Shown: positions 5,742 through 20,773 of the stretch, piece by piece | How the letters are laid out: each line of letters starts with the position of its first letter | How positions within the stretch are numbered: position 1 is the stretch's first letter | Assembly: GCA_023954745.1 (NCBI GenBank) | Contig: JAGSHC010000018.1 | Coordinates: forward strand, 1-48,986 | Source of the DNA: Deltaproteobacteria bacterium | GTDB taxonomy: Bacteria; Myxococcota_A; UBA796; UBA9615 | Direction of reading: 5' to 3' | Length of the DNA: 48,986 nt | Made by a program: the position numbers and the translations under genes | The notes under the pieces: model-generated | Database searches by the model: none | Seen by the model: the letters and a program-made list of their open reading frames with translations, nothing else | Told to the model about the DNA's origin: nothing

Positions 5742-6662
5742 TCATCGGGGGCGGCGGCCGCGCACGAACCATGCCCCGTGGGGATAGACGAGGGACCCGC
5801 CGCGGTCGAGCACCTGGTTGCAGGTAGACAGGAATGCAGCCCGGAGTCGCTCGACGGCCTCGGGTCGAGCCCCGAGGATTCGGTAGCGCGCTGCGCTCGA
5901 GAAGTGCAGCGAGAGCTCCCAGAACTCTTCGGGGTCTTCGATCCCGTCCACGTGCCCGCGCCAGGACGAGCGCAGCTCGGTGAACCCGGTCTTGCGCAGG
6001 AGCGCCTCCGTGCGCGGTCCCGACCTCGTCGAGAGCGCGCTGCTCCCTTCGGTCCCGTGCAGGCGGGGCTCCCCGCAGAGGTGGCTCTCCACCATCTTCA
6101 GGATGAACTGGGGGGCGAGGAGAGACAGCCCCAGACGCTCCTCCACGAGCACCCGCAGCCGCCTGGCGCGATACCGAGTGCCCCGAGCCGAGACCCAGGG
6201 CCCTGCGCTCCCGACCCCAACGACGAAGCGGCCTCCGGGGCGGAGAACGCGCAGCATCTCCCGCGCCGCGAGCTCGGGGTGCGGGAGGTGCCGGAGGAGG
6301 AAGAGGCTCGTGACGAGGTCGACGCTGCTGTCAGCGACCTCGAGCTTCTCGGCGTCACCGCGGGCGAACTTGACGATGTGGGGCGTGAGCCCCAGCTTGC
6401 GCCCCCGCTCGGCGGCGTACTCCAGCATGCCCTCGGACAGATCGACGCCGAGGACCTTGCCGCTGCCGCCGAGACGCGACCCCAGAGCACGCGCCATCAT
6501 CCCGGTGCCCGTGCCTACATCGAGGGCCTGTTCTCCCGCGTGCACGCCGGCGAGGTCGCACGCGTAGTCCGTATAGGCGGCGCTGTAGCGTTCGCTCAAC
6601 CGGTCGAACACGACGGCGACGTCATGTTCGTAGCTGGCCGCCTCGTCTCTCTTTGTTCCCAC
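5742..6662 (-). CDS. SAM-dependent class I methyltransferase (UbiE-like)
   Basis: The 306-residue protein has a Rossmann-type methyltransferase core. Motif I is ALDVGTGTGMMAR (about residues 46-58), an acidic ribose-binding strand follows (VLGVDLSEGM), then ARGDAEKLE and VTSLFLLRHLPHPELA (motifs II/III), then a glycine turn (RVLRPGGRFVVGV). This fold uses S-adenosylmethionine; the substrate cannot be read from sequence, and the C-terminal third is not diagnostic. The start is a GTG with no convincing Shine-Dalgarno. As read, the gene overlaps the 3' end of leuS by 67 nt, but that overlap disappears if the leuS frameshift described below is corrected. Confidence 0.8.
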   Translation of the reverse strand: MGTKRDEAASYEHDVAVVFDRLSERYSAAYTDYACDLAGVHAGEQALDVGTGTGMMARALGSRLGGSGKVLGVDLSEGMLEYAAERGRKLGLTPHIVKFARGDAEKLEVADSSVDLVTSLFLLRHLPHPELAAREMLRVLRPGGRFVVGVGSAGPWVSARGTRYRARRLRVLVEERLGLSLLAPQFILKMVESHLCGEPRLHGTEGSSALSTRSGPRTEALLRKTGFTELRSSWRGHVDGIEDPEEFWELSLHFSSAARYRILGARPEAVERLRAAFLSTCNQVLDRGGSLVYPHGAWFVRGRRPR

Positions 6663-9379
6663 GCGCAGCGATCGTAGCCGTGACCAACCCCCTTCTGGGG
6701 AGCTAGCCGGGAATGATGTTTCAGTCGGCCCGGCACGTAGATGACACGCCGGGGCGGCGCCTCACCCACCCACTTCGCGGCGGCAGCCAACGCCGCCGCC
6801 TCGATGGCGGGCTGGTCGGCGTTGGCGGCGACGGCGATCGAGGCCCGCTTCTTGCCCTTGATCTGCACGACGATCTCGATGGAGTCGTCCGCTGCAGCGG
6901 ACGCGTCAGCCTCCGGCCAGGACACGTCTTCCAGGACGTCGGCGCGACCCATCTTCTCCCACAGCTCGTTGGTGAAGTGCGGCGCGAAGGGGCTCAGGAG
7001 GCGCAGGACCGTCTCGAGGGCCTCGACCATCACCGAAGACACCACGCCGCCCGCGCCGATCTCCGCGGTGTGAGCAGCCTCGTACTTGTACAGCGTGTTC
7101 ACCAACTCCATCACCGCTGCGATGGCGGTGTTCAGCTGGAGCCGCTCCTCGACGTCGACGGTCACCCGCACGATGGTCTGGTGCACGGCGCGACGCAGAG
7201 CGACGGCGTCGGAGTCCAGATCGCTGCCGTCTCCGCTGTATGCGGCCACGGGACCCAGAGCATCCGTGTGGCGCCGGACCAGGCGCCACACGCGCCCGAT
7301 GAAGCGCGAGGCTCCCTCGACGCCGGCGTCGGACCACTCGAGGTCCTTGGTTGGCGGCGACGCAAACAGGCAGAACAGACGCATGGTGTCGGCGCCGTAG
7401 TGCGCGATGAGCGTCTCGGGGTCCACGGTGTTGAGCTTGCTCTTGCTCATCTTCTCGATGCGGCCGATGGAGACCTCGCGGCCCGTCTCCTTGTGGGTGG
7501 CCCGACGGACCACGGTCTCCTTGCCGTCGACGGTGACCGCCTCGGACCGGATGTCGATGTCGGTGGGCAAGACCCACTCCCCATGTTCATCCTTGTAGGA
7601 CTCGTGGTTGACCATGCCCTGGCAGACCAGGCGGGTGAACGGCTCGTCCACCGCCGGGATGTGACCCAGGTCCCGCAGGATCTTCGTGTAGAAGCGCGCG
7701 TAGAGCAGGTGCATGACTGCGTGCTCGATGCCGCCTACGTACATGTCCACGGGCAGGAAGCGCGCGGCCATCGCGGGGTCCACGAGGCCGCCTTCGTAGT
7801 GGGGGCTGCAGTACCGCATGAAGTACCAGGACGACTCCATGAAGGTGTCCATCGTGTCCGTCTCGCGGCGCGCAGGCCCGCCGCACGTGGGGCAGGTGGT
7901 CTTCCAGAAGGCCTCGTGGCGCGCCAGGGGCGAACCGCCTTCGCCGCCGATCTGCACGTCCTTGGGCAGCACCACGGGCAGCTGGTCCTTCGGAACGGGG
8001 ACCATGCCGTCGACGTCGCAGTAGATGACCGGCACCGGGGCACCCCAGTAGCGCTGACGGGAGATCCCCCAGTCGCGCAGGCGGAAGTTGACGGTCCCCT
8101 TCCCTGCGTCCTTCTCCTCCAGCTCCGCGATCACCGAGGCCTTGCCTGCCTCGTTGGCGGTGCCGTCGTGAGTCCCGGAGTTCACCATCGTGCCGGCCTC
8201 GACGAACGCTTCGGTCATCGTCGAGGCGTCGAGCGTCGCGTCCCCCGGCGGGTCGATGACCACGACCTTGTCGATGCCGTACTTGGTGGCGAACTCGAAG
8301 TCGCGCTGGTCGTGAGCCGGCACCGCCATCACCGCGCCCGTGCCGTAGTCCGCCAGGACGAAGTTGGCGGTGTAGATGGGCACCTCTCGCCCGTTCACGG
8401 GGTTGATGGCGTAGCGCCCGACGAAGACCCCCTCCTTCTCGGTGGCCGCATCGGTGCGGTCGGCCTTGTCGGTGCGGCCCATGCGGTCCACGAAGGCGTT
8501 GACGGCCGCTTCCTGCTCGGTGCCCGCAGCCAGGCGCTTGGTCAGCGGGTGCTCGGGGGCGAGCGACATGAAGGTGCAGCCGTAGAGCGTGTCGGGGCGG
8601 GTCGTGAAGACCTCGATGACCCCGTCGCTGCCGTCGGGCACGTCGCCGGACAGCGCGAAGCGGATGGACGCACCCGTGGAGCGGCCGATCCATCCCACTT
8701 GTTGGGTCGTGACCGCGTTCGGCCAACCGTCCATGGAGCCCAGGCAGTCCAGCAGTTCCTGGGCGTAGTCAGTGATCCGCAGGTACCACTGCTCCAGCTC
8801 CTTCTGGATCACCGGGTTGCCACACCGCCAGCAGTTGCCGTCAGCGTCCACCTGCTCGTTGGCCAGGACGGTCTGGCAGCTCTCGCACCAGTTCAGCATC
8901 CCGCCCTTCTTGTAGGCGAGGCCCTTCTCCAGCAGGTCGAGGAACACCGCCTGCTCCCACCGGTAGTAGGACGCGTCGCACGTTGCCAGCTCCCGGTCCC
9001 AGTCGTACGAGAAGCCCAGGCGCTGCAGCTGGCGCCGCATCACCGCGATGTTCGAGTAGGTCCAGTCGGCCGGATGCACGCCGCGCTTGATGGCGGCGTT
9101 CTCGGCAGGCAGGCCAAAGGCATCCCACCCCATCGGGTGCAGCACATCGAACCCCCGGGCGCGCTTGAACCGCGCCATGACGTCCCCGATGGAGTAGTTC
9201 CGCACGTGGCCCATGTGCAGCTTGCCGCTGGGGTACGGGAACATCTCGAGCATGTAGAACTTCGGCTTGTCTCCCGCTTCCTCGGGGACCGCGAAGGTCT
9301 TGTCCTTCTCCCAGTGGGCCTGCCATCGGGCCTCGACTGTGGCGGGATCGTACTGCTGCTCGTCGGAGTGGTCGGACAT
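6596..9379 (-). CDS. leuS: Leucyl-tRNA synthetase, frameshifted at the extreme 3' end
   Basis: The product charges tRNA-Leu. Visible hallmarks are the HIGH-type motif (KLHMGHVRNYSIGD), two Cys clusters (CESCQTV...CWRCG and CPTCGGPA), the CP1 editing domain (TTRPDTLYG), the tryptophan-rich WGAPVPVIYC segment and the KMSKS loop (EKMSKSKLNTVDPE). The anticodon-binding and C-terminal domains are complete up to VIYVPGRL (Leu886). After that the frame runs on for 41 atypical residues into the methyltransferase gene. Reading two bases further gives VNIIPG and a stop at 6703-6705, the ending expected of the family; the corrected protein would be 892 residues. This could be a real mutation or a sequencing/assembly error. 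The N-terminus is typical for LeuS. Confidence 0.93.
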   Translation of the reverse strand: MSDHSDEQQYDPATVEARWQAHWEKDKTFAVPEEAGDKPKFYMLEMFPYPSGKLHMGHVRNYSIGDVMARFKRARGFDVLHPMGWDAFGLPAENAAIKRGVHPADWTYSNIAVMRRQLQRLGFSYDWDRELATCDASYYRWEQAVFLDLLEKGLAYKKGGMLNWCESCQTVLANEQVDADGNCWRCGNPVIQKELEQWYLRITDYAQELLDCLGSMDGWPNAVTTQQVGWIGRSTGASIRFALSGDVPDGSDGVIEVFTTRPDTLYGCTFMSLAPEHPLTKRLAAGTEQEAAVNAFVDRMGRTDKADRTDAATEKEGVFVGRYAINPVNGREVPIYTANFVLADYGTGAVMAVPAHDQRDFEFATKYGIDKVVVIDPPGDATLDASTMTEAFVEAGTMVNSGTHDGTANEAGKASVIAELEEKDAGKGTVNFRLRDWGISRQRYWGAPVPVIYCDVDGMVPVPKDQLPVVLPKDVQIGGEGGSPLARHEAFWKTTCPTCGGPARRETDTMDTFMESSWYFMRYCSPHYEGGLVDPAMAARFLPVDMYVGGIEHAVMHLLYARFYTKILRDLGHIPAVDEPFTRLVCQGMVNHESYKDEHGEWVLPTDIDIRSEAVTVDGKETVVRRATHKETGREVSIGRIEKMSKSKLNTVDPETLIAHYGADTMRLFCLFASPPTKDLEWSDAGVEGASRFIGRVWRLVRRHTDALGPVAAYSGDGSDLDSDAVALRRAVHQTIVRVTVDVEERLQLNTAIAAVMELVNTLYKYEAAHTAEIGAGGVVSSVMVEALETVLRLLSPFAPHFTNELWEKMGRADVLEDVSWPEADASAAADDSIEIVVQIKGKKRASIAVAANADQPAIEAAALAAAAKWVGEAPPRRVIYVPGRLKHHSRLAPQKGVGHGYDRCAWEQRETRRPATNMTSPSCSTG

Positions 9380-9468: not shown

Positions 9469-10455
9469 CTACCAGGAGAGCTCGAGCCAGCCGTTCCCCA
9501 GGTTCACCCCGGTGTCCGTCGAGGTGACCGTGTTGCCCGCGGCGGAGGTGTACGACGAGCCTCCCCCACCGCCAGCAAAGCCGCCCGTCCCCCCGCCGAA
9601 CCAGCCCCCGCCACCCGCACCACAGCCCGCTCCGTCGAACCAGCACGCGCCCCCGGCCCCGAAGGAGCCGGGTTCATTCGGGTAGTCGGGCTCACGGGCC
9701 CACCCCACCGCGCCTCCGGCGTCCTGGAGTCCCCCGCCGCCTGCGGTGAACTCCGGATCCGTCGACGTGCCGTCGCCCCCCACCGCCCCACCGCCATCAC
9801 CACCAAAGCCATCGCGCGCCGTCCAGCCGCCGCCGCCGCCGCCTCCAGCCACGAGCAGCCGGTCCTCGAGGTCTTCGCCGCGACGCAGATCCGTCGCTCC
9901 GCCGCCGAGGCCGCTGAACCCGCCACCGCAGCACTCCATGGCGCCTCCGCCCCCGTTGAAGCCCCCTGTCTCCGTGGTGACGGTGACCGCCGAGAGGCCG
10001 CTCCCCCCCACCAGGACGAGCAACCTCTCCCCAGGAGTGACCGGGATCGTGGCGCGAGCGACTCCGCCCCGGCCCCCCGTGATGCCGGAGTCGCCGTCGC
10101 CGCCGGACGCCCCCACCGCGCACGCCTGGATCGAGGTCACCCCCTCGGGGACATCGAACGTCTCGGCGGCGCCGGTGTACTCGAACACGACGATTGGGTT
10201 CAAGGTGTCGAAGACGCAGGCTTCTTCGACCATGTCGTCGTCATCACCAGTGGCGTCATCGTCGTTCGCAGTCGCGTCGTCGTCGTCGGCGGTCGCGTCA
10301 TCGTCGTCCGCGGTCGCGTCATCGTCGTTCGCGGTGGCGTCGTCATCGTCCGCGACGACCCCCGGTTCGTTCCTGAGCACGGGCGGACATCCCCACAGGA
10401 GGACCGCGAGCGCGCCGAGGAGGAAGCGGGACGAGGTGACTGCGGGACCGGTCAT
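9469..10455 (-). CDS. Gly-rich lipoprotein with Asp-rich repeat linker (copy A)
   Basis: The 328-residue protein starts at the ATG at 10455, where a lipoprotein signal ends in AVLLWGC. An acidic low-complexity stalk follows, made of 7-residue units such as DDDDATA and NDDDATA and encoded by six 21-bp repeats. The remaining ~240 residues form a Gly-rich domain (FNGGGGAMECCGGGFSGLGG, DLRRGEDLEDRLLVAGGGG) resembling the Pfam Gly_rich domain also found in ALK/LTK receptors. It lies 8 nt downstream of a close paralogue (copy B) and is likely co-translated with it. Its function is unknown; the architecture suggests an outer-membrane-anchored surface domain held on a charged spacer. Confidence 0.75.
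   Translation of the reverse strand: MTGPAVTSSRFLLGALAVLLWGCPPVLRNEPGVVADDDDATANDDDATADDDDATADDDDATANDDDATGDDDDMVEEACVFDTLNPIVVFEYTGAAETFDVPEGVTSIQACAVGASGGDGDSGITGGRGGVARATIPVTPGERLLVLVGGSGLSAVTVTTETGGFNGGGGAMECCGGGFSGLGGGATDLRRGEDLEDRLLVAGGGGGGGWTARDGFGGDGGGAVGGDGTSTDPEFTAGGGGLQDAGGAVGWAREPDYPNEPGSFGAGGACWFDGAGCGAGGGGWFGGGTGGFAGGGGGSSYTSAAGNTVTSTDTGVNLGNGWLELSW
10234..10359. repeat. 21-bp tandem repeat, about 6 copies, encoding an Asp-rich stalk
   Basis: Six consecutive 21-bp units of the form GTC-GTC/ATC-GTC-GTC/TTC followed by a short variable part lie inside lipoprotein copy A. On the coding strand each encodes a 7-residue Asp-rich unit. The copies differ at several positions, so this array is older or less homogenised than the one in copy B. 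Confidence 0.85.
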
Positions 10456-10463
10456 TGGGCGAC

Positions 10464-11507
10464 CTACCAGGAGATGGTGATCTCGCCGTGGCCTGACTGC
10501 TGGCCTGCCAGGGTGGACCCGTTGGTGGTCCCGGGGGCAGCGACGTAGGACGACCCACCGCCCGCGCCGGCGAACCCTCCGGTGCCGCCGCCATACCAGC
10601 CGCCGCCGCCCCCTCCGCATCCAGCACCATCGATGTAGCAGACCCCGCCCTCGCCAAACGAACCGGGGGTGTTGGGGTAGCCCGAGCCGGTCCAGCCCAC
10701 CGCGCCGCCCGCCGTCTGCGTGCCCCCGTTGCCCGCGGGGAAGCCGGGATCGTTGGAGAACCCATCGCCGCCGATGAGCCCACCGCCGTCGCCACCGTCG
10801 CCGTCGCGGTCGCCCCAGCCACCCCCGCCGCCGCCGCCGGCCACCAGCAGTCGGTCAGAGAACGTGCTCCCGCGCCGGATGTCCGAGCCGCCGCCGCCGA
10901 GGCCACTGGCCCCGCTCCCGCAGCACTGGATGATGCCGCCGCCACCGTTGAACCCACCGACGGGTGTGGTGCTGGTCACCAGCGATGCCCCGCTCCCACC
11001 GACGTACACCTCGAGGGTCTCGCCGGGGGTCACTGCGACTTCGCCATAGGCGTAGCCTCCGAGACCGCCGACGGCGAGGACGCTGTCTCCGTCCCCGCCG
11101 GCTGCGCCATAGGCGTCGACGAAGAGGGTCGTCACCCCCGAGGGAACCGCGAAGGACTGCACCCCGCCGGTGTAGGAGAAGGTGATCGTCCCAGGGGAGG
11201 CGTCGTCGTCGTCACCGGTCGCGTCGTCGTCATCGCCCGTCGCGTCGTCGTCGTCACCCGTCGCGTCGTCGTCGTCACCCGTCGCGTCGTCGTCGTCGCC
11301 CGTCGCGTCGTCGTCGTCACCCGTCGCGTCGTCGTCGTCACCCGTCGCGTCGTCGTCGTCACCCGTCGCGTCGTCGTCGTCGAGGGCGCTGTCGTCATCG
11401 TTCGCGTCGTCGTCGTCGTCGCCTCCGCCCCGACCGCGAAGGGAGAGGCACCCTCCAAGGGAAAGGGCGAGCAGGAGCACGAGCAGAGAGGTGAGGCGCG
11501 AGGTCAT
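10464..11507 (-). CDS. Gly-rich lipoprotein with DDDDATG repeat linker (copy B)
   Basis: The 347-residue protein starts at the ATG at 11507, giving a signal peptide with lipobox SLGGC. An in-frame extension further upstream only reads antisense through the dciA/tsaC region and is not credible. After the lipidated Cys comes a long acidic linker with eight DDDDATG units, then a Gly-rich domain (GGFNGGGGIIQCCGSGASG, DIRRGSTFSDRLLVAGGGG) that aligns along its length with copy A, including a CCG pair and the IRRG/LRRG motif. The two genes are evidently a tandem duplication. Function is unknown; a surface or matrix role is inferred from the lipid anchor and low-complexity spacer. Confidence 0.75.
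   Translation of the reverse strand: MTSRLTSLLVLLLALSLGGCLSLRGRGGGDDDDDANDDDSALDDDDATGDDDDATGDDDDATGDDDDATGDDDDATGDDDDATGDDDDATGDDDDATGDDDDASPGTITFSYTGGVQSFAVPSGVTTLFVDAYGAAGGDGDSVLAVGGLGGYAYGEVAVTPGETLEVYVGGSGASLVTSTTPVGGFNGGGGIIQCCGSGASGLGGGGSDIRRGSTFSDRLLVAGGGGGGGWGDRDGDGGDGGGLIGGDGFSNDPGFPAGNGGTQTAGGAVGWTGSGYPNTPGSFGEGGVCYIDGAGCGGGGGGWYGGGTGGFAGAGGGSSYVAAPGTTNGSTLAGQQSGHGEITISW
11200..11388. repeat. 21-bp tandem repeat, about 9 units, encoding DDDDATG
   Basis: Near-identical 21-bp units (core GCGTCGTCGTCGTCACCCGTC) run for nine units; the last is partial. Several central units are identical, which favours slippage, so the copy number may vary between strains. On the coding strand each unit gives DDDDATG. 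Confidence 0.9.
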
Positions 11508-11569: not shown

Positions 11570-11872
11570 CTACTTGGGAGGCGCGTCCGGCGACAGCTTG
11601 ATCACCAGCCGAAGGACGTCGAGCCCCTCCGCTTGCACGCGGGGAAGCAGGCGCGCCTTCATCCCCAGGGCCTGCTTCTGCCAGTGCAGAGTGTCCGCCT
11701 CGAGCATGAGCGCTCCGTTCTTGCGGCCCACTGGGCGCACGTGACGCGCCAGGAGCTCTCCCGCCGCCCGCTCCCAGGCGGCGTGCTGCAGCAGCGCGTC
11801 CTCGAGACCCGCCTTCCGGAGGAAGCCGTGCAGCGCGCTGTCGATCCCCACGGTGGGCCGCGGCTTGCTCAT
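11570..11872 (-). CDS. dciA: DciA-like DUF721 protein
   Basis: This small protein (100 residues) matches the DUF721/DciA family, whose characterised members help load the replicative helicase DnaB. The family pattern is visible: a helical start (IDSALHGFLRKAGLEDAL), a central W..AAGELLARHVRPVGRKNG turn, and the paired strand and helix GALMLEADTLHWQKQALGMKARLL. It lacks the longer tail of some homologues but is close to normal size. The ATG at 11872 overlaps the upstream tsaC stop (ATGA), so it is probably translationally coupled to tsaC. The longer upstream frame was rejected because it runs antisense through tsaC. Confidence 0.72.
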   Translation of the reverse strand: MSKPRPTVGIDSALHGFLRKAGLEDALLQHAAWERAAGELLARHVRPVGRKNGALMLEADTLHWQKQALGMKARLLPRVQAEGLDVLRLVIKLSPDAPPK

Positions 11873-19086: not shown

Positions 19087-19261
19087 GAGCGGATCCTTGC
19101 AGCCTTTTTTGCCTGCTGCTGAATGAGACTGCGACCTGCTCCGTCTGATGTGCATGGACCCGTTGTTCCCTGGTGCGCCCCCGAGCCGCGCCCTATGCTT
19201 CACCCGCTCCGTGCCCCGGGGCGGCGGACTTGACCCGACCGTCCCGCGGAGGACCCCGACC

Positions 19262-20773
19262 ATGACCCGTCCCCGACCCTCTCTCTTCCCTCGTCTCACC
19301 TCGTTGTTCACGGCGATGCTCGCCTGCGCCGCCATGATCGTGGCGTTCGCGCCGGGGGACGCCGAAGCCCATCGCACCGTCACGATGTACGAGTACGACG
19401 GCAACCACCCGATTCCGGAGCCCTTCGACGGGTGGTGCGAGGAGGCTGGGATCCACGTCCACTCCTACTATCTCGACCCGGACGAGTTTCCGATCTACGA
19501 GGTCGACGGGGTCATCCACTTCATGGGTGATCCCATGCTGTATGGGTATCAGGGCAACGTGAACTGGTACTACGACCCCCACCCGGTGGGTCACATCAGC
19601 AACCACTGGTGCATCCTCGAGGGGCCGCACTCCCACCGCTGGTCACCCGTCTGGGGCCACCGCCACTACGGGCGGCCCTACTGGAGCACGCACGACCGCT
19701 ACTACGTCTACACCGGGCTCTACGACGGCTGGTTCACCTACTCGTGGGACCTCTATTACACGAGCGTGTGGGGCGTCCACATTCGGGTCGTGAATCGGCA
19801 CCGGCACCACTACGGTCACCACCACCCCGTCTACCGCTACCAGGACCGCAGCTACCGCCGACCGAGCTACTCCGGCCGCCATCGCCACCGAAGCAACCAC
19901 TCGTCGGCGCGGCCTCGTGACTCCTGGGGCGGAAGCGCCGACAGCAGCCAGGCGCGGCCTCGAAACGACCGGGACCGAGACGACCGTGACCGCGCGCGGG
20001 GCGAGCGATCCGACAGCTCTCGCTCCTCGGGGGCGGCAAACGGGCGCGCCACCTGGGACGGCGGCAGCCGCGCCGGGAGCCGGGACTCCGTGGGCCACGA
20101 CAAGCGCGCCTACGGCGAGCGCAGCGACAGCAGCCGCACGTCGCGAGAGGCAGCGGCCGACTCCCAGCGTCGGTCCGCGGACTCTTCGCGCACGAACGAC
20201 CGTGCACGGAGCCGGGCCTACGGCGGCGGCACCTACGGCGGAAGCTCGTCGAGCAAGAGCTACGGGTCCAGCCGACCGAGCAGCAGCTCCCGGACCTACG
20301 GCGACAGTTCGTCGAGCAAGAGCTACGGGTCGAGTCGCAGCAGCAGCTCCCGCACCTACGGCGGGTCCTCGTCGAGCAAGAGCTACGGGTCCGGTCGCAG
20401 CAGTAGCTCCCGCACCTACGGCGGAACCTCGTCGAGCAAGAGCTACGGGTCCAGCCGGCCCAGCAGCAGCTCGTCGCGCAGCTCGAGTTCCTCGAGCAAG
20501 AGCTACGGATCCAGCCGGCCCAGCAGCAGCTCGTCGCGCAGCTCGAGCTCGTCGAGCCGGAGTTACGGAACCCCGTCCCGCAGGAGCAGTTCCACCCGCT
20601 ACGGGTCGGGAAGCAGCAGCCGGAGCAGTTCCAGTGGCGACAGCAGCAGCAGCAGCAGCGGCAGCAGCAAGAAGAGCTCTTCCTCGTCGAAGAGCCGGTC
20701 CAGCAGCAGCAAGAGCAAGAGTTCCAGCTCCAAGCGGTCGAGCAGCAGCTCGAGCCGAAGCAAGCGTCGCTGA
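19262..20773 (+). CDS. Secreted His/Tyr-rich protein with long Ser/Tyr/Lys repeat tail
   Basis: The 503-residue protein starts at the ATG at 19262 (GGAGG 9 nt upstream) with a signal peptide likely cleaved after Ala36 (DAEA/HR). Residues about 37-200 are rich in His, Tyr and Trp (HVHSYYLDPDEFPIYEVDG, HRHHYGHHHPVYRYQ), which suggests metal or polymer binding. From about residue 220 the sequence becomes Arg/Ser/Asp-rich, then a 20-residue repeat of the form SSSKSYGSSR-SSSSRTYGG, and finally an almost pure Ser/Lys/Arg tail. The composition suggests a surface or matrix polymer or a cationic adhesin; no function is recognised. Its stop is 3 nt before the lytic transglycosylase start, so the two are probably expressed together. 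Confidence 0.7.
   Translation: MTRPRPSLFPRLTSLFTAMLACAAMIVAFAPGDAEAHRTVTMYEYDGNHPIPEPFDGWCEEAGIHVHSYYLDPDEFPIYEVDGVIHFMGDPMLYGYQGNVNWYYDPHPVGHISNHWCILEGPHSHRWSPVWGHRHYGRPYWSTHDRYYVYTGLYDGWFTYSWDLYYTSVWGVHIRVVNRHRHHYGHHHPVYRYQDRSYRRPSYSGRHRHRSNHSSARPRDSWGGSADSSQARPRNDRDRDDRDRARGERSDSSRSSGAANGRATWDGGSRAGSRDSVGHDKRAYGERSDSSRTSREAAADSQRRSADSSRTNDRARSRAYGGGTYGGSSSSKSYGSSRPSSSSRTYGDSSSSKSYGSSRSSSSRTYGGSSSSKSYGSGRSSSSRTYGGTSSSKSYGSSRPSSSSSRSSSSSSKSYGSSRPSSSSSRSSSSSSRSYGTPSRRSSSTRYGSGSSSRSSSSGDSSSSSSGSSKKSSSSSKSRSSSSKSKSSSSKRSSSSSSRSKRR
20245..20550. repeat. About five 60-63 bp tandem repeats encoding SSSKSYGSSR...TYGG
   Basis: The block with core TCGAGCAAGAGCTACGG recurs every 60-63 bp, five times, within the Ser-rich secreted protein. 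Units differ mainly at synonymous or conservative positions (Ser/Pro, Gly/Asp). The following Ser codons (AGC/TCG/TCC) continue as a degenerate trinucleotide tract to the end of the gene. Confidence 0.85.

Follow-up and report, generated by a model that had tools for sequence, protein, structure and literature searches.

Aspartate-rich repeat stalks beside predicted membrane anchors are widespread in an order that probably belongs to the Myxococcota

An aspartate-rich repeat stalk, encoded here by two neighbouring genes of an uncultured bacterium, is a trait of the whole order to which this bacterium belongs and is not special to the gene pair. It lies mostly beside the predicted membrane anchor, at whichever end of the protein carries the anchor. 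We think it probable that the stalk is an acidic, disordered, anchor-proximal spacer which would hold extracellular domains off the membrane and which is remodelled by tandem duplication. The original prediction, made on the window (the whole stretch of DNA that was analysed, 48,986 nucleotides), was that the repeat arrays of two lipoproteins could change copy number and tune the distance of a Gly-rich domain from the membrane. This was supported in part and was too narrow, having missed a module of the whole lineage. Because the stalk is found on many unrelated proteins and at either anchored end, it probably serves a general function and not one tied to the Gly-rich domain.

The two genes, B and then A, lie head to tail with 8 bp between them, and the pair sits between leuS and a gene that is presumably DUF721/DciA-like, with 89 bp from the end of A to leuS. 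The features are as follows.

6596 to 9379, minus strand: leuS, the downstream neighbour
9469 to 10455, minus strand: gene A, predicted lipoprotein with Asp stalk and Gly-rich domain, 328 aa (open reading frame translation; PF12810 at 3.6e-21)
9472 to 10185, minus strand: Gly-rich domain of A, the stretch aligned (Pfam match, alignments)
10234 to 10350, minus strand: stalk of A, residues 36-74, with 6 Asp clusters, 22 Asp and diverged units
10387 to 10455, minus strand: predicted signal peptide of A, ending in VLLWG-C (Cys23), with Pro at +2 (from the sequence)
10464 to 11507, minus strand: gene B, predicted lipoprotein with Asp stalk and Gly-rich domain, 347 aa (open reading frame translation; Pfam PF12810 at 4.9e-22)
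10467 to 11156, minus strand: Gly-rich domain of B, the stretch aligned (Pfam match, alignments)
11202 to 11420, minus strand: stalk of B, residues 30-102, with 11 Asp clusters and 44 Asp
11448 to 11507, minus strand: predicted signal peptide of B, ending in the lipobox LSLGG-C (Cys20) (from the sequence)
11570 to 11872, minus strand: presumed DUF721/DciA-like gene, the upstream neighbour

At these coordinates we recovered the two predicted paralogues with lipobox, acidic repeat stalk and Gly-rich domain, the domains being 65% identical. Both lipoboxes were read by eye, and a stricter lipobox rule takes that of B and rejects that of A, in which the Trp at -2 is unusual for the consensus. Cys20 of B is an invariant column in an alignment of 41 stalk lipoproteins, and an Arg-Gly stretch lies in B between this Cys and the stalk. 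Tandem Repeats Finder gave a period of 21 bp for both arrays, with 8.7 copies and 95% matches in B (11200-11381) and 5.7 copies and 82% matches in A (10234-10353), confirming that the units are near-identical in B and diverged in A. The eight ATG spacers of B have nearly identical codons, seven of them reading GCG ACG GGT or GCG ACG GGC. Both proteins end in the Gly-rich domain, and the C-terminal Cys motif, hydrophobic helix and Arg-rich end of MYXO-CTERM proteins are absent from them. In three other genomes (G001, G002 and G003; sampled genomes are numbered G, loci L and contigs C) leuS and the dciA-like gene adjoin without the pair, the matched stretches being about 110-170 nt apart as against 2190 in the window, with only partial dciA matches in G002 and G003. 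The pair was therefore either inserted here or lost there.

The likeness of the Gly-rich domain to that of the ALK and LTK receptors was upheld. PF12810 (ALK_LTK_GRD) matched A with 76.7 bits (profile positions 14-203 of 243) and B with 79.5 bits (12-239), against a cut-off of 24.5, so that the profile match runs along nearly the whole domain. When a profile of 15 bacterial domains was compared with the PDB, eight ALK/LTK sequences (7lrz, 7nx0 and others represent this domain) were matched at 5e-9 to 2e-8 and the next matches had E values of only 1.4 and 1.6; B alone as the query gave no PDB chain up to E 10. Since the Gly bias is high, it is the corrected score and its specificity that carry the relation to ALK. 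PF12810 is the sole Pfam match in A and B up to E 1, at which limit neither a kinase domain nor recognisable RTX, EF-hand or MopE repeats were found. A and B thus differ from the receptors in having no kinase or other Pfam domain and in their predicted lipid anchor. ALK and LTK have a TNF-like sandwich with packed Gly-rich strands; the likeness of A and B to these receptors is at the level of the profile, and an AF2 model from the two window sequences had a mean pLDDT of 35.5. The phage tail fibre Pam3 gp24 is described as having a TNF-like and glycine-rich head, its Gly-rich domain being structurally similar to an ALK ectodomain and the variable tip of the head being proposed to bind the receptor (PMC9608196). 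That protein is a trimeric phage fibre, whereas A and B are predicted lipoproteins, and a scan of viral contigs with two patterns turned up no relatives of A or B.

PF12810 was matched in 12 of 58 genomes, the source genome included, where A and B are its only two places; the same-genus genome G001 (95% complete) gave no match. Relatives inside and outside the family carry the domain in other contexts, behind what look by eye like MopE-like or hexapeptide-like repeats. The CC pair had been called conserved, and it is present in A, B and two relatives from the family (L045 and L039), but it is missing from the other 11 of the 15 aligned domains and is therefore a marker of this lineage, not of the domain as such. 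L045 (in G005) is the closest relative besides the pair itself, with a lipobox, the CC pair and an Asp-cluster stalk whose spacers are partly Pro-rich; as read from its sequence, it has kept the domain and has a different stalk. The best explanation of A and B is that they are lipid-anchored envelope proteins, lipidation being predicted from the lipobox, which would display an ALK/LTK-type Gly-rich domain. This would place such a domain on a bacterial lipid anchor. A receptor-like role would be a guess, and the relation to ALK is one of the domain only.

The stalk extends far beyond this locus. A codon pattern for D4-x3-D4 had 701 matches in the source genome and 0 in the reversed control, so the pattern is not due to chance. 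Among the 282 phylum genomes scanned, this strict pattern had 284-834 matches in each of the six genomes of the family and only 7 in the sister-family genome G006. On the strict pattern alone the stalk would appear to be a family-only trait, which we rejected because a homologue in the sister family (L269) has a long array of DDD units and because a relaxed pattern, D3-x(1-4)-D3-x(1-4)-D3, is found order-wide. The relaxed pattern had 1711, 1292, 359, 1697, 2367, 1482 and 1171 matches in G000 (the source genome) to G006 respectively, that is in all seven genomes of the order, and its reversed control gave 0 except for a single match in G002. Outside the order the highest counts were 65 within the same class (G008) and 193 among the remaining genomes of the 282 from the phylum (G230), some matches elsewhere in the phylum being plain poly-Asp. 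By extrapolation the source genome has roughly 130 to 200 stalk genes, the lower figure coming from 4 stalk lipoproteins in 217 kb and the higher from 29 clusters among the first 100 of the 701 matches. MYXO-CTERM was present in all 12 genomes searched, the source genome included, and it is reported as universal in Myxococcota (PMC11980579); the order probably belongs to this group. In a search of genome contigs, B gave no relative, and LeuS matched none of the 80 loci kept at more than 59% identity. We found no description of Asp-repeat stalks in these bacteria among the titles and abstract openings searched, and the strings DDDDSAGDDDD, DDDDATGDDDD, DDDDAADDDD and DDDDSGDDDD were absent from the literature text searched, subscription papers being mostly outside the scope of both searches.

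The position of the stalk was assessed with a fair sample of 28 stalk genes chosen regardless of Cys (those of the window and L052-L071). In this sample 20 stalks start within 45 residues after a predicted lipobox Cys, 2 end close in front of a MYXO-CTERM-type tail, contig ends truncate 4 of the genes and the last 2 have another arrangement, so that the stalk is anchor-proximal in 22 of the 24 uncut genes. A wider sample of 130 genes from two genomes had 91 stalks after a lipobox Cys (gap median 7, range 2-33), a count that is inflated because most of L096-L129 and all of L216-L255 were selected with a pattern requiring TGC within 30 nt of the stalk; the 20 of 28 is the fair count. Some of the other sampled loci came from the D4-x3-D4 scan, and L130-L135 came from MYXO-CTERM matches. 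A further 17 stalks of the wider sample stand ahead of a C-terminal tail whose first Cys is 0-25 residues away, and the other 22 are cut genes, bare C-termini, interdomain stalks or unclassified. Rules and inspection by eye, not SignalP, were used to assign lipoboxes and tails, and some true cases (L105, L252) escape the lipobox rule. NCBIfam was run on ten proteins. The stalk stands directly before the tail in seven of them, and six of these match TIGR03901 at E of 0.05 or less (four above the cut-off, namely L066, L100, L120 and L133, and two under it, L052 and L125), L111 giving no match; of the three with the stalk further inside, L106 is over the cut-off and L098 and L117 have no match. 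Among the exceptions, the stalk of L060, which has L235 as its reciprocal best match, joins two domains, and four stalks (L103, L104, L127 and L239) are at bare C-termini, followed only by SGN, SSN, SAR or SSKK. Figures for random placement (15% per gene and a joint probability) were discarded as circular, having been derived only from genes already classed as lipoproteins. The locus L236 (G001:C112) has two tiny lipoproteins consisting of a signal peptide, CPTG or CPTTG, DDDDSAADDDD and SAM, a stalk with no cargo. L057, L126 and L129 have a common mature N-terminus, C-x-L-C-W-P-R-G-G, before the stalk, and their DNA is related.

The stalk is acidic and almost free of balancing charge, with 2803 Asp, 5 Glu and 3 Lys or Arg among 4337 residues; the rule by which stalks were selected favours Asp and leaves the spacers free for any residue. 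A reading-frame test of GAC tracts by GC3 gave D 274, S 146, T 17, V 14, M 1 and R 1, counts that are confounded by the complementary Ser frame. Pro is at +2 in 49 of 91 stalk lipoproteins. Within G000 it occurs in 29 of 50 stalk lipoproteins versus 5 of 28 stalk-less candidates (p 0.0008), a list that contains several likely false candidates, and the contrast is weaker (p 0.0096) with the 22 stalk-less candidates kept by judgement. An Arg-Gly stretch between Cys and stalk, by a loose rule, is found in 13 of 50 in G000 and 6 of 41 in G001. In Escherichia coli, Pro at +2 can oppose release by Lol, and pullulanase is a type II client with a retention signal of this kind. It would be speculative to tie the Pro of the stalk lipoproteins to avoidance of Lol or to a type II route.

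What the stalk carries is very diverse. The 41 aligned stalk lipoproteins have little in common except Cys and Asp, and Pfam assigned them to 23 families, 19 of which occur in a single protein. Many of the domains are extracellular, and the families include fasciclin, C-type lectin, VWA, GDSL lipase and M43 and M66 peptidases. Homologues of two stalk lipoproteins were then sought by protein search with the stalk ignored, and their N-termini were read. In all 16 homologues that come from other orders the linker is short and has no Asp runs, often with Gly, Ser and Thr. Within the family, 7 of 12 homologues have two or more Asp clusters (L271, L272, L284, L256, L257, L259 and L260), 3 have one (L273, L274 and L275) and 2 have none (L285 and L258). 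Of the lipoprotein candidates, 4 of the 32 in 217 kb taken without selection had a stalk, and so did 4 of the 16 in G006. Among those without a stalk are housekeeping proteins (D-Ala carboxypeptidase, cytochrome c, TPR) as well as MopE, TSP3 and LTD proteins; as the latter kinds of cargo are also found on stalks, cargo separates the two sets only loosely. In a group of three paralogous stalk lipoproteins from G000 with two relatives from G001 (L122, L247), several members have long pure poly-Asp runs.

The codons of the arrays point to growth by local duplication. Where spacers in G000 have the same residues, codon identity is 0.72 within arrays and 0.80 between neighbours, as against 0.41 between arrays; 301 permutations gave a mean of 0.44 and a maximum of 0.51. 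The values in G001 are 0.83 within arrays, 0.85 between neighbours and 0.48 between arrays, with a permutation maximum of 0.69. Spacer codons are thus homogenised within arrays, and the part of the original prediction in which the arrays expand locally gains support from this. Between G000 and G001, each the one genome of its species in the set, 10 reciprocal-best pairs of stalk genes were compared: 3 have the same number of clusters, the residues of the units are different, and at least one pair (L071/L240) is unlikely to be orthologous. These sequence comparisons are consistent with a change of array length between the two species. Both sets were picked for stalks, so the sharing of the stalk in 10 of 10 pairs means nothing. 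As the units are multiples of 3 bp, slippage alters the length and does not switch off the gene. Copy numbers are provisional because the arrays break the assembly: 14 of 74 sampled G000 arrays are within 120 nt of a contig end, where 1.2 were expected (for example C9, C15, C29, C42, C119 and C120). Swapping of N-terminal anchor modules between genes was considered and is not claimed, the only DNA matches being short (21-87 nt).

Our preferred explanation is as follows. The stalk is a segment of Asp clusters and small residues, almost without balancing positive charge, that separates the folded cargo from the predicted lipidated Cys, or from the Cys of a C-terminal MYXO-CTERM. Repulsion between the clusters would keep this segment extended and unfolded, and the extended stalk would raise the cargo clear of the membrane with its polysaccharide. 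Each array would be lengthened, shortened and homogenised locally as in-frame units of about 15-24 bp are duplicated in tandem, and the stalk as such may be maintained by selection. Linkers beside lipid anchors are commonly regarded as filler. Here one acidic repeat is found on many unrelated proteins and at both anchored ends, and homologues outside the order have short linkers free of Asp runs. If the explanation is right, the stalk flags, from sequence, some of the proteins that uncultured bacteria are likely to carry on their surface, and the homologues are a natural comparative experiment on what is needed of a linker next to an anchor, as well as a clean test of signal versus spacer. The MYXO-CTERM proteins are similar in that TraA of Myxococcus has a disordered region beside the MYXO-CTERM (PMC11980579), next to a Cys proposed to be lipidated, and such proteins occur in the source genome. 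A and B differ in their predicted anchor at the N-terminus, and the main text of that paper uses none of the words linker, acidic or aspart-. The linkers described for outer-membrane lipoproteins are also segments between lipid and fold (PMC12846838), whereas the Asp stalk is long, repeated and mostly Asp.

Several observations do not sit easily with a spacer. The interdomain and bare C-terminal stalks are out of place, most unselected lipoprotein candidates have no stalk and the same kinds of cargo occur among them, 5 of the 12 family homologues have one cluster or none, and a generic spacer leaves the use of Asp over Glu unexplained. A bolder version, in which the stalk is an order-wide code for surface display on clients of both the lipobox and the MYXO-CTERM routes, one physical or recognised property of it setting where and how far more than 100 unrelated domains are shown and its length evolving by tandem duplication, seems doubtful to us. 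That the stalk might be a sorting signal, acidic residues near the lipidated Cys directing export to the surface as in the LES of Bacteroidota, is unlikely. The LES likewise places acidic residues after the lipidated Cys of surface lipoproteins, needs an overall negative charge, and is predicted in B. fragilis to be SDDDD after Cys, a sequence that works in C. canimorsus (PMC5080379). Stalks are also found before MYXO-CTERM tails, the known MYXO-CTERM proteins being described as type II-secreted surface proteins (PMC11980579). The source genome has a GspD gene, and the excess of Pro at +2 with the stalk hints at a shared route. Yet the LES is short and its position is critical, the optimum being C-X-K-(D/E)2-X (PMC5080379), whereas the first Asp of the stalk comes anywhere from 2 to 33 residues after Cys, the array reaches up to 98 residues, and stalks also occur at the other terminus and between domains. 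Moreover, homologues outside the order manage without one.

Neutral expansion, by which GAC-rich repeats would grow by slippage in tolerant linkers and the acidic character would have no function, has in its favour the strong homogenisation within arrays, the variation of unit sequence and number between species, and those same five family homologues. We nevertheless judge it quite unlikely, as the stalk is limited to one order though homologous lipoproteins exist outside, and as the unconstrained spacers have hardly any Lys, Arg or Glu. The near absence of Glu would also suit binding of calcium, as suggested earlier, or of other divalent cations by the Asp clusters, which might stiffen the stalk or bridge it to phosphate-rich lipopolysaccharide. 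The rule of selection already favours Asp, and mutation of GAC repeats would give an equal bias. With no EF-hand, RTX or MopE repeat recognised by Pfam in A and B up to E 1, we give cation binding very little credence.

A second tandem repeat, of 60 bp, is present elsewhere in the window, in the C-terminal part of a 541-aa open reading frame on the plus strand (19148-20773). The repeats are at 20229-20589 and code for Ser/Tyr/Arg-rich units, for example SSSKSYGSSRPSSSS.
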